DNA of 64,000 bases from Sphingomonas sp. GTDB taxonomy: Bacteria > Pseudomonadota > Alphaproteobacteria > Sphingomonadales > Sphingomonadaceae. The stretch is from positions 62,001 through 126,000 of the forward strand of contig NZ_JAIEPC010000016.1 in the NCBI RefSeq assembly GCF_019749955.1, in the 5' to 3' direction. The notes under the pieces were generated by a model. It was not told where the DNA came from, did no database searches, and was given only the letters and a program-made list of their open reading frames with translations. This document shows positions 51,061 to 53,806 of this stretch, piece by piece. The translations under genes were made by a program, and so were the position numbers. Position 1 is the first letter of the stretch. Every line of letters starts with the position of its first letter.

Positions 51061-51711
51061 CTAACGGGCGGCGGTGGCGGCTTCAATCGCGAACTGGTCG
51101 GGCGCCGGCACCGCGAGCCGATAGCCCACGCCCTTTTCGGTGCGTAGCAGCGGCACTGCAAAGTCGCGGTCGATCTTGGCGCGCAGGCGCGAGACATGGA
51201 CGTCGAGCACATTGGTGCCCGGATCAAAGCCGACGCCGCACACCCGCTCCAGCAGCGCCGCGCGGCTGATCGACTCGCCGGGATGCAGCGCCAGTTCGAG
51301 CAGCAGGCGATATTCGCGCGGCAGCAGCTCGATCGGCATGCCGCCGCGCCACACCCGGCGGTCGATGGTGTCGATCGCGAGATCGCCGAGCGTGATCAGG
51401 CGTGGGCTGCCGCGGCGGATGAGGGCCGCGACCCGCGCAGCGATCAGCCGGTCGCTCGCCGAATGGACGACGGCATCATCGGCACCGGCATCGATCGCGT
51501 CGATGACGGCGGCTTCGTCATTCTCAACAATCATCAGCACGGGCGAGGGTGACCGCTGCCGAAGCACCGCCAGCGTTGTTTCGGGTGGTATCGTGCCTTG
51601 GGCGACGATCAGCAGCGCCGCGACGCCGGGCGTGCCATCGGCGGTGATCCCGCGATCGGCCAGCGCCGCGACGAGCGCGGGACGATCAGACGAGAGCCAG
51701 ACGCGTGACAT
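51061..51711 (-). CDS. OmpR-type winged-helix regulator with degenerate receiver
   Basis: The 216-residue protein has an N-terminal receiver-like domain (residues 1-103) and a C-terminal OmpR/PhoB winged helix (about 105-205). The latter shows LPREYRLLLELALHPG, RVCGVGFDPGTNVLDVHVSRLRAKI and RTEKGVGYRL. The receiver has no Asp where phosphorylation should occur: the strand reads ALLIVAQGTIPPE. It therefore probably acts without phosphorylation. It follows the cupin-like gene by 56 bases on the same strand and may regulate that operon. No histidine kinase gene is adjacent. Confidence 0.85.
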   Translation of the reverse strand: MSRVWLSSDRPALVAALADRGITADGTPGVAALLIVAQGTIPPETTLAVLRQRSPSPVLMIVENDEAAVIDAIDAGADDAVVHSASDRLIAARVAALIRRGSPRLITLGDLAIDTIDRRVWRGGMPIELLPREYRLLLELALHPGESISRAALLERVCGVGFDPGTNVLDVHVSRLRAKIDRDFAVPLLRTEKGVGYRLAVPAPDQFAIEAATAAR

Positions 51712-51767
51712 AGGCAGGGTCTAACCCGCCCGACGCACGGACGACGCGCGACCTGCTCCATTTTGGA

Positions 51768-52580
51768 TCATGCTGCGAGCGCCTGCGCAGCGGCGACCGA
51801 GGCGAGCGCGGCAGCGGCGGTGCGCCGCATGCGCGGCGAGGGATGCCGCGCGGCGAAGGAAGTGGCGAGATCAAGCCCGTTGCCGCCACCGAAATGCACA
51901 GCGAGCGACATCAGCACTTCGGACGCCGTTGTCGTCATGCTGCGCACAATCGTGCGCGCGGTGACGTCGAATTCGTACTGGTTGCGCCATTGCTGGGCGG
52001 GATCGCGCGCGAGGATGTTGAGCGATACCGAGAGCGCTTCGGGCGGGTGCTGGACATGGACGTCGCGGTGCGCGCGGTAAAGCAGCAGCCGACCGGGATC
52101 GAGGCGGGTCGTACCGACGGGCCGAAGGTCGACCGGCTCACCGGGCCATCCCTCGACCTGGTCGCCGTCATAGACAAAATCGTCGCTGAGATAGCCCGGT
52201 CCGGCATAGCCATAGGTCAGGAACGGGAAATTATGGTCGTGCGCGAAGCCGTAGAAAAAGGCAGCGGGGCCGCTGGCGCGCAGAACCGCGTCGCTGCGCG
52301 CTGGCCAGAAATTGGCGCGCACGACGAAGCGGCGGTCGGCGGTGAGCAGCATGACTTGCGGGCCATAGCTGTTGGCGGTCTGGCGCTGGTGGCGGTCCTT
52401 CAATTCGGCAATGGCGAGATCGGCGAGGAAATCGCGGTTGCGCCCCAGCCCGGCGAGCAGCGGGCCAAGGCTGGCGAAAGCGTCCTCATCGCGCGCGTCG
52501 GCGGGTGTCGACGCCAGCGCATCGGCCAGCGCCTCCAGCGTGATCGCGGGGGGCTCGCCGGGATCGATCAGTCGCGGCAT
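51768..52580 (-). CDS. Cupin / 2-oxoglutarate-oxygenase-like protein
   Basis: From ATG 52580 the protein has 270 residues. The centre carries GFAHDHNFPFLTYGYAGPGYLS, with an HxH pair, then FVYDGDQVEG and LDPGRLLLYRAHRDVHVQHPPEALSVSLNI. The pattern HxH, later G-x(5)-P-x-G and a second His suggests a cupin-type metal site like that of oxygenases. I have no firm family match. It overlaps the end of the HEAT-like gene by 13 bases, so they are translationally coupled. It sits in the operon with the 53-residue peptide. Hydroxylation of that peptide is one possible role, as inference. Confidence 0.6.
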   Translation of the reverse strand: MPRLIDPGEPPAITLEALADALASTPADARDEDAFASLGPLLAGLGRNRDFLADLAIAELKDRHQRQTANSYGPQVMLLTADRRFVVRANFWPARSDAVLRASGPAAFFYGFAHDHNFPFLTYGYAGPGYLSDDFVYDGDQVEGWPGEPVDLRPVGTTRLDPGRLLLYRAHRDVHVQHPPEALSVSLNILARDPAQQWRNQYEFDVTARTIVRSMTTTASEVLMSLAVHFGGGNGLDLATSFAARHPSPRMRRTAAAALASVAAAQALAA

Positions 52581-53512
52581 TGCAGCTTGGCCTCGACCAG
52601 CGGGATCATTTGCGCGGCGGCGGCGCGAATTTCGGCGTGCGGATCGTCGAGCATCGCGCGCAGCCGGGGCAGCGCCGCACCGGCATCGAGCGCGAGCCAT
52701 TCGCGCATCACGCCCCAGCGCACAAAATGCGCCGGATCGCGGCTCGCCAGGTCGAACACGTCGCCCGCATCGGCGCGCCCGGCGTGGCGCAACAGTGCTG
52801 CGAGCATCTGCGTGCGCGAGGCGATGTCGTCGAGCGCCGCGACGCGGACCAGCGCGCCGTCGCCCTGCGCATATTCGCGCATGACGGCGGCGCTGTCGGC
52901 GCGGACGGTCGCGGTTACGGTGACGATGTCACTCGTCGCGCCGTCGATCAGCTGGGCGTGGCTGCGTCCGTCAATGCGGCGGACCAGCCCGTCGACGAGC
53001 CGCACCGCGCCCACCGGACGGCAAGGCGGCGCATCTGCTGCGGTAAAATCGGGCGTCGCGGGCTCCGCGCGCCACAGCAGCAAGGTCGCACCGCCGCCGC
53101 GCTCATACCGCACCACCGACAAACGGCCGGGGACGACCACTGTGGTTGGCCGGGGGGCCGCCGCCAGCGTCGCCGCGGACAGTATGGCAGCCGTGATCGT
53201 AACGGCGGGATGCTCGAACAGGATCGCGCCGGTGCGCAGCGGATCGCGGCTGAAGCGCAGCGGCGGATCGATCCAGGCGTCTAGCGCCAGCGCATCGATC
53301 AGCGGCGCGATCAGATCAACCGCCCAGTCGGGATCGGCGAGCAGCACCATCGCGCGATCGGCAATCGATTCAGCGGAGGCATTGTCGCAATCGGCGAACA
53401 GCGCCGTCGCGCGGGCGTAGGGCGCACTCTGGCGCCAGTCCTGCGCGAGCATTGCCGAGGCAGCCTGCGCTTCGGTGAGTCGTGCACGTGCGGGCGGCGT
53501 TGCCTGCTGCAT
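52568..53512 (-). CDS. HEAT-repeat-like protein coupled to a small peptide gene
   Basis: The 314-residue protein starts with ATG 53512, whose A is the last base of the upstream peptide stop (TGATG). The middle, about residues 95-185, is beta-rich (TTVVVPGRLSVVRYERGGGATLLLWRAE). The C-terminal 100 residues (LVRVAALDDIASRTQMLAALLRH to LPRLRAMLDDPHAEIRAAAAQMI) look like HEAT repeats, which form protein- or peptide-binding surfaces. No catalytic motif is seen. The gene order peptide, HEAT-like, cupin-like suggests it presents the peptide to the metalloenzyme, which is inference. Confidence 0.65.
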   Translation of the reverse strand: MQQATPPARARLTEAQAASAMLAQDWRQSAPYARATALFADCDNASAESIADRAMVLLADPDWAVDLIAPLIDALALDAWIDPPLRFSRDPLRTGAILFEHPAVTITAAILSAATLAAAPRPTTVVVPGRLSVVRYERGGGATLLLWRAEPATPDFTAADAPPCRPVGAVRLVDGLVRRIDGRSHAQLIDGATSDIVTVTATVRADSAAVMREYAQGDGALVRVAALDDIASRTQMLAALLRHAGRADAGDVFDLASRDPAHFVRWGVMREWLALDAGAALPRLRAMLDDPHAEIRAAAAQMIPLVEAKLQCRD

Positions 53513-53673
53513 CACACCGCGCGCGGATCCATTTCGTAAACGATCACGGCGATCGCGACGATAATTTCAAAAATATCGTCGCCGACAATCTCGCCCATGC
53601 GGATGGCCCCACTGACCGCGACTTGGGTGCTAAGATCGACAATTTGATCAATATCGATACCAATGATGCCCAT
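53512..53673 (-). CDS. 53-residue peptide, candidate modified-peptide precursor
   Basis: This small open frame begins ATG 53673 with AAAGG 6 bases upstream and stops with TGA that overlaps the next ATG. The coupling and the ribosome binding site argue that it is real. The peptide starts MGIIGIDIDQIVDLSTQ and ends IVAIAVIVYEMDPRAV. It alternates acidic and aliphatic residues, has one Tyr, no Cys, and no signal peptide. Because it precedes HEAT-like and cupin-like genes, a ribosomally synthesised and modified peptide is possible. It could also be a small scaffold or regulatory protein. I do not recognise the family. Confidence 0.6.
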   Translation of the reverse strand: MGIIGIDIDQIVDLSTQVAVSGAIRMGEIVGDDIFEIIVAIAVIVYEMDPRAV

Positions 53674-53806
53674 AGCCAGCCTTTATTATCACTTCGAGGA
53701 AAGGTTAAGCGACGTTGCTTGGGCGGGAGAGTTAAATCGCTGAAAGGTTTCCCTGTGCTTGTTGCGGCTTGGCACGCCCCCGATGCTGTGTGTAAAGCCG
53801 CGCGCA

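Follow-up and report, generated by a model that had tools for sequence, protein, structure and literature searches.

A likely peptide-maturation operon in Sphingomonas that joins a predicted thiol-dioxygenase-fold enzyme to an inactive-looking paralogue

The stretch of DNA analysed here (the window: 64,000 nucleotides of a Sphingomonas sp. genome, positions 62,001 to 126,000 of contig NZ_JAIEPC010000016.1) carries on its minus strand adjoining genes for a short peptide, a HEAT-like protein and a cupin-like protein. We consider it likely that they form an operon of the type that produces ribosomally synthesized and post-translationally modified peptides (RiPPs), served by a new pair of maturation proteins, in which the cupin-like protein is the probable metal-dependent peptide-modifying enzyme and the HEAT-like protein its probable partner. 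Such a route to the chemical modification of peptides has probably not been described before. This reading draws on a fixed gene order, co-conservation of the three genes, purifying selection on the peptide, a conserved histidine triad and exporters linked to the pair in some relatives. The features concerned are as follows.

53512..53673, minus strand: precursor-like peptide of 53 amino acids (open reading frame list and position check)
52568..53512, minus strand: HEAT-like protein (ATG start inside TGATG)
51768..52580, minus strand: cupin-like protein (open reading frame list, fold model, conserved histidines)
51061..51711, minus strand: OmpR/PhoB-type winged-helix regulator with a degenerate receiver domain (family searches; by eye)
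53730..53745, minus strand: conserved upstream element, window form TTTCAGCGATTTAACT (motif over-representation across loci)

The initial annotation, which was made from the letters of the window, had described four minus-strand genes, two of whose junctions overlap (by 1 and 13 bases) while the third is a gap of 56 bases, and these coordinates were confirmed: the peptide stop and the HEAT-like start share one base within TGATG (an alternative HEAT-like start, GTG, lies one codon upstream at 53515), the HEAT-like and cupin-like genes overlap by 13 bases (52568-52580), and 56 bases separate the cupin-like gene from the regulator. We compared 93 loci, namely the window copy, 12 from a second collection and 80 stretches fetched from genomes of the same family (Sphingomonadaceae), taken mostly best-first among the same-family matches, with weaker, fragmentary or skipped matches left out. 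The order peptide, HEAT-like protein, cupin-like protein is fixed across the compared loci, and the concern that the three genes might not be co-conserved did not materialize; the trio is real and old. A HEAT-like open reading frame (ORF) was assigned in 89 of the 93 loci, and the 13-base overlap with the cupin-like gene recurs in 51 of these 89. The script rule gave no HEAT-like ORF in four loci: L087 breaks off at the edge of its contig, an ORF is in fact present at the HEAT position in L058 and L114, and L097 has two overlapping shorter ORFs there. Matches to the cupin-like protein were found in 106 of 298 same-family genomes (46 of 96 genera) and at 12 loci of the second collection. The gene is present in about a third of the sampled family genomes, yet none of the three core proteins of the window reaches a Pfam or NCBIfam cut-off; the initial annotation, too, had recognized no family for them.

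The peptide divides into a leader-like N-terminal part (GIDIDQIVDLSTQVAVSGAI) and a hydrophobic C-terminal part (DDIFEIIVAIAVIVYEM). A profile built from 18 loci, with which both strands of the whole loci were scanned at a threshold of E<0.01, matches 81 of the 93 loci (63 of the 75 outside its building set), every one on the operon strand, and nothing on the opposite strand or elsewhere in the loci at that threshold. In 80 of the 81 matched loci the peptide stop lies 868-1168 bases 5' of the cupin-like start. Eleven of the 12 profile-negative loci have a short ORF with a similar N-terminus, as judged by eye, and the twelfth, L087, is the one that ends at a contig edge. A short precursor gene beside enzyme genes is one mark of a RiPP operon, and it is found here. 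The layout differs in L042 (3539-5033), where the peptide lies 2250 bases 5' of the cupin-like gene, versus the usual distance of about 950, with an insert between the peptide and the HEAT-like gene.

Aligned, the peptides begin with an N-terminal motif close to P-K-ID(L/I)--LPDLDT--G-FGS, followed by a linker and then by the hydrophobic C-terminal part, which falls into several types (among them DDRIVIIMVYLYE; DDIFEIIVAIAVIVYE in the clade of the window; EVGG--C-G------I in a cysteine-bearing group). A single glycine is conserved in 80 of the 81 peptides. The mean column entropy is 1.90 bits over 24 N-terminal columns, versus 2.62 bits over 27 C-terminal columns, and in the 81-peptide alignment the C-terminal core is variable overall yet conserved within clades. 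Of the two kinds of core that the initial annotation would have counted as support, hypervariable or conserved, a hypervariable core was not seen in sphingomonads, where the core varies but is conserved by clade. The peptide is under purifying selection (ratio of nonsynonymous to synonymous substitutions, dN/dS, about 0.13 between the window and L031; pooled pN/pS, the corresponding polymorphism ratio, 0.35 over 114 non-independent pairs), and it appears to have the traits of a leader and a core, although the cores are conserved within clades.

The cupin-like protein is predicted to have a fold of the cysteine dioxygenase (CDO) superfamily type. It lies below all Pfam and NCBIfam cut-offs, its recurrent weak matches being to HEAT repeats only. 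Pfam searches with 29 members, at E up to 1, gave no match to the family CDO_I (PF05995), and this family has no match in the window genome either; a PDB sequence search with the single sequence gave a chance-level match only, and with a 29-row profile the best match had E 0.21 and CDO chains were absent. These searches assigned the protein to no named family and did not reveal it as a known small-molecule enzyme. The best AlphaFold2 model has a mean predicted local distance difference test score (pLDDT) of 80, and all 50 of its listed VIA matches to known structures belong to the CDO superfamily (CDO, thiol, mercaptosuccinate and ergothioneine dioxygenases, PCO and ADO). The best listed match is to 8vni (Z 14.8, root mean square deviation [rmsd] 3.4, 173 residues), to which residues 12-216 of the model align; a short HEAT-like tail follows at the C-terminus. 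His114, His116 and His175 are each conserved in 92 of the 93 loci and, in a profile alignment, are in register with the H-x-H and distal histidine metal ligands of the CDO family. When a profile of 29 cupin-like members was compared with 15 CDO-family sequences, the alignment spanned 165 columns and had a probability of 44% (E 2e-4), versus at most 0.3% for six reversed or shuffled controls; the CDO-family set was what remained of 23 loci after eight had been dropped for having no ORF that fitted the motif pattern.

The CDO link rests on a predicted structure and a modest profile match, and three results weigh against it. The five models are uneven (mean pLDDT 80, 70, 47, 46 and 45); a 93-row cupin-like alignment gives 5.5% in the comparison with CDO proteins; and the S-x-H-x-Y of CDO proteins is S-x-N-x-M/L in the cupin-like family (Ser186 in 91 of 93 with Thr in the other 2, Asn188 in 92 of 93, and mostly Met, Leu or Val at position 190), whereas in CDO the Ser-His-Tyr triad is catalytic in the outer sphere. 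The conservation of each of the three histidines in 92 of 93 loci argues for catalysis, and the cupin-like protein is probably an active enzyme with a presumed metal centre, not a canonical thiol dioxygenase. The usual thiol reaction of CDO cannot be the common one because only 18 of the 81 peptides contain cysteine. We rejected cysteine dioxygenation as the common reaction on the ground that the majority of peptides lack cysteine.

The HEAT-like protein and the cupin-like enzyme appear to be paralogues. The former is predicted to consist of a CDO-like cupin domain and C-terminal HEAT-like helices; its model (pLDDT 78) has an order of secondary-structure elements similar to that of the cupin-like protein, and 49 of its 50 listed VIA matches belong to the CDO superfamily (best listed match: Z 11.5, rmsd 3.2, 150 residues). 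Full-length profiles of the two families, built from large alignments, match at 94-97%, versus at most 0.9% for seven reversed or column-shuffled controls. We read the two as paralogues because the profile match, the element order and the fold agree over the full length; for the cupin domains in particular, paralogy follows from the full-length match taken with the predicted folds. On the other side of the balance, the first comparison, with 13-row alignments, gave only 3.2%; with the large alignments the helical tails by themselves reach 72%, the beta domains by themselves no more than 4-6%; and the HEAT-like family matches CDO proteins at 2.4%. The HEAT-like protein looks catalytically dead because its family has no well-conserved histidine column (none with histidine in more than 38 of 89 sequences), and the enzyme and this putative pseudo-enzyme travel as a pair. 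The initial annotation had recognized in these genes the design of a tiny precursor, a binding protein and a metal-dependent enzyme. The trio in fixed order is consistent with that design, and the part that has to be given up is the generic binding protein, in whose place stands an apparent paralogue of the enzyme.

Outside Sphingomonadaceae the pair is rare. Wide searches scored the best few candidates per genome, and their counts are lower bounds: at least 1 non-family genome of 337 searched (5 hits, 4 of them in the family), at least 2 of 398 (15 hits, 13 in the family), and, in two other families, at least 10 of 198 and at least 8 of 196 genomes. The pair is also found on two plasmids, of Alteromonas and Vibrio. 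At 21 non-family loci the HEAT-like profile matches the ORF directly before the cupin-like ORF in 17. Visual inspection gave candidate peptides for 13 of these 21 loci (L176 is unclear and L168 was not examined); L123 and L165 each have two different small ORFs before the pair, and the peptide of L179 and L180 contains ...LTLEDAEFVSGGG... (MKELTLEDAEFVSGGG), a stretch that we take to resemble a double-glycine leader. Six loci (L124, L166, L167, L170, L171 and L172), in which no convincing peptide was seen by eye, count against the peptide-maturation reading. As separate observations, the enzyme pairs of L169 (7440-11400) and L173 have diverged, and their peptides are of a different type; in L169 two pairs stand in tandem, and one peptide has two similar stretches (STLFIFAARK and STAFIFAAQR). 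L124, on Vibrio plasmid NZ_CP080241.1, has a short cupin-like gene and a preceding ORF that overlaps it by about 10 bases, with no clear peptide, and is surrounded by recombinase and restriction-modification genes.

The initial annotation had noted that no transporter or peptidase is present. Those of the types tested are nearly absent from sphingomonad loci in general, but exporters or TldD/E proteins are found beside several non-family homologues. Among the 21 non-family loci we counted HlyD in 8, ABC ATPases in 8, MacB in 5, Yip1 in 5 and TldD in 1. Pfam confirmed HlyD, ABC, MacB and Yip1 together in L123 and in L176, HlyD, ABC and MacB in L165, HlyD and ABC in L174, ABC and Yip1 in L172, and Yip1 in L175; in L177 two PmbA/TldD proteins directly follow the cupin-like gene. 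The scarcity of such genes at the 94 sphingomonad loci (HlyD 1, any of three ABC queries 5, and MacB, Yip1 and TldD 0 each) weighs against the peptide-maturation reading. The contrast between the two groups is itself somewhat inflated, in that seven of the 21 non-family loci supplied the queries and the non-family stretches were longer (about 17.5 versus 12.5 kb each). L176 (genome G1301) has three cupin-like copies in about 15 kb, with Yip1-HlyD-ABC-MacB and S49 peptidase genes between them.

The regulator is a less constant neighbour. Its description as phosphorylation-independent agrees with a degenerate receiver in which the phospho-acceptor aspartate was not seen by eye, and a degenerate or missing receiver is seen by eye in the regulator of the window and in 24 of the 25 homologues that cluster with it (that of L045 is normal, and the degeneracy is least clear in L050). 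A homologue is linked in at least 26 of the 93 loci (clustering at E<1e-10, ORFs of at least 80 amino acids), and on this count, a lower bound, we rejected the regulator as a constant fourth member of the operon, as which it had been presented.

Upstream of the peptide lies a conserved element with half sites TTWCA and TTAAY 10 bases apart; in the window its end is 57 bases from the peptide start. The upstream regions are enriched in a motif resembling ATTACAATnTTTTAATTTC: TTAATTTC occurs upstream of the peptide in 21 of 81 loci versus 0.2 expected, and TTWCAN5TTAAY lies no more than 140 bases upstream in 30 of the 81 versus 0 for the backwards control. Across the complete genome of the window, the 16-base pattern and its backwards control have 2 sites each; among 14 other genomes, 6 have one 16-base site each and the control none, and 5 of these 6 sites lie about 1.2 kb upstream of the cupin-like gene of the operon (the sixth, in G041, is elsewhere). 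The element is found in 4 of 22 loci with a linked regulator versus 26 of 59 without one. This lower frequency beside a linked regulator speaks against the regulator as the reader of the element, and in most genomes the reader is probably not this regulator.

Genes around the operon, where tested (nine of L089 and one of L078), are general genes, including those for a thioesterase, RuvX, signal peptidase S26, ACPS, PdxJ and a phosphoribosyl transferase, and they fall into clusters common to 33-55 of the 93 loci. Such neighbours fit vertical inheritance and a domesticated role in sphingomonads, which we infer to proceed there without a dedicated exporter. A defence or phage origin is without support: PADLOC and PHROGs gave no family for five proteins, and a phage collection gave no match (viral contigs were not searched).

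According to the mechanism that we propose, the peptide would be made ribosomally and then modified after translation. Its N-terminal leader would be recognized by the HEAT-like protein, by the enzyme or by both, and the three-histidine enzyme would oxidize the hydrophobic C-terminal part. The enzyme would do so in a heterodimer, in which its catalytically dead paralogue would present the peptide. Outside Sphingomonadaceae the pair would act on other short peptides, which would then be trimmed (by TldD/E, or at double-glycine-type leaders) and exported by MacAB/Yip1-type pumps, such trimming and export factors being linked in some non-family loci and unlinked in sphingomonads. In Sphingomonadaceae the system would be mostly a chromosomal trait, with the conserved upstream element and no linked exporter, to which the neighbouring phosphorylation-independent regulator would be added in some lineages. 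Put more broadly, and tentatively, at a level of belief that stops a little short of an even chance, these operons could define a new RiPP class, in which a maturase of thiol-dioxygenase fold and its own dead paralogue apply a new oxidation chemistry to mostly cysteine-free hydrophobic peptides; the products would be bacteriocin-like and exported in scattered proteobacteria and, in Sphingomonadaceae, domesticated as an endogenous modified peptide (a signal or a cofactor) under its own promoter element. The CDO fold is known mainly for thiol oxidation, and if the pair modifies the peptide, the fold would gain a peptide reaction that involves no thiol. The dead-twin arrangement also offers a simple handle for genome mining.

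The strongest competitor, although an unlikely one, is that the pair forms a small-molecule (thiol) dioxygenase complex, with the peptide as a third subunit or a regulator and not as the substrate. The closest folds are thiol and mercaptosuccinate dioxygenases, the majority of peptides have no cysteine, the peptides of sphingomonads show the sequence conservation expected of a subunit, and linked exporters are almost absent at sphingomonad loci, all of which such a complex would explain; yet the non-family peptides are very diverse, occur two to a locus in L123 and L165 and in some cases have leader-like GG ends, exporters and TldD/E adjoin the pair in several loci, and the His-Tyr of thiol dioxygenases has been lost. 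We think it distinctly more improbable that the operon is an oxygen- or redox-sensing switch, in which the enzyme would oxidize the peptide as plant cysteine oxidases (PCO) and ADO do protein N-termini and the peptide would signal to the regulator or the membrane. PCO and ADO are among the listed structural matches, and a regulator with no phospho-acceptor is linked in some lineages, both of which would suit a switch; but PCO and ADO act on an N-terminal cysteine, which is absent from most peptides, and the regulator was found linked in only 26 of 93 loci (again a lower bound). Immunity proteins are, to our knowledge, rarely so conserved over a family, which counts against the least probable reading of all, an unmodified bacteriocin-like or membrane-active peptide with the two proteins as immunity or chaperone factors. 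The hydrophobic C-terminal halves and the peptide-toxin-type efflux systems in relatives (compare YknWXYZ, PMC4887032) would suit this last reading, but the three histidines, each in 92 of 93 loci, argue for catalysis.

As a RiPP-type maturation operon, which is the reading that we prefer, the locus belongs to a known kind of system; searches of open-access literature brought up neither a maturase that is a CDO-fold enzyme paired with an apparently dead paralogue nor a RiPP with any CDO-like or HEAT-repeat maturase. The nearest precedent found is PbsQ/BpmG, a cupin-like JmjC-related hydroxylase of biphenomycin-like RiPPs (PMC12257519). The likeness is that a cupin-like protein hydroxylates a residue of a ribosomal peptide; the difference lies in the JmjC relationship of PbsQ and in its companions, namely an MNIO, an arginase and a B12 radical SAM enzyme (PMC12257519), genes for which were not seen among the listed neighbours in the window, where no family search was aimed at them. 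RiPP pairs of an MNIO and a partner (PMC12257519) share the logic of a peptide, a metal oxidase and a partner that takes the leader, and differ in that the MNIO is a TIM barrel and the partner carries a RiPP recognition element (RRE), whereas the pair in the window appears to share one cupin fold. YknWXYZ, the efflux system for the SDP peptide toxin of Bacillus, combines a Yip1-family protein, a membrane fusion protein, an ATPase and a MacB-like permease, as do L123 and L176; a CDO-like pair is not mentioned in the passages of PMC4887032 consulted, and the window locus is without such an exporter. With the CDO superfamily itself (mercaptosuccinate dioxygenase, 8vni; Pseudomonas aeruginosa thiol dioxygenase, 4tlf) the cupin-like protein has in common the predicted fold, the H-x-H and the distal histidine. 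Unlike those enzymes, it matches no named family, carries an added HEAT-like tail and has Asn-Met/Leu in place of His-Tyr, and its operon also encodes the seemingly dead paralogue and an adjoining peptide gene.

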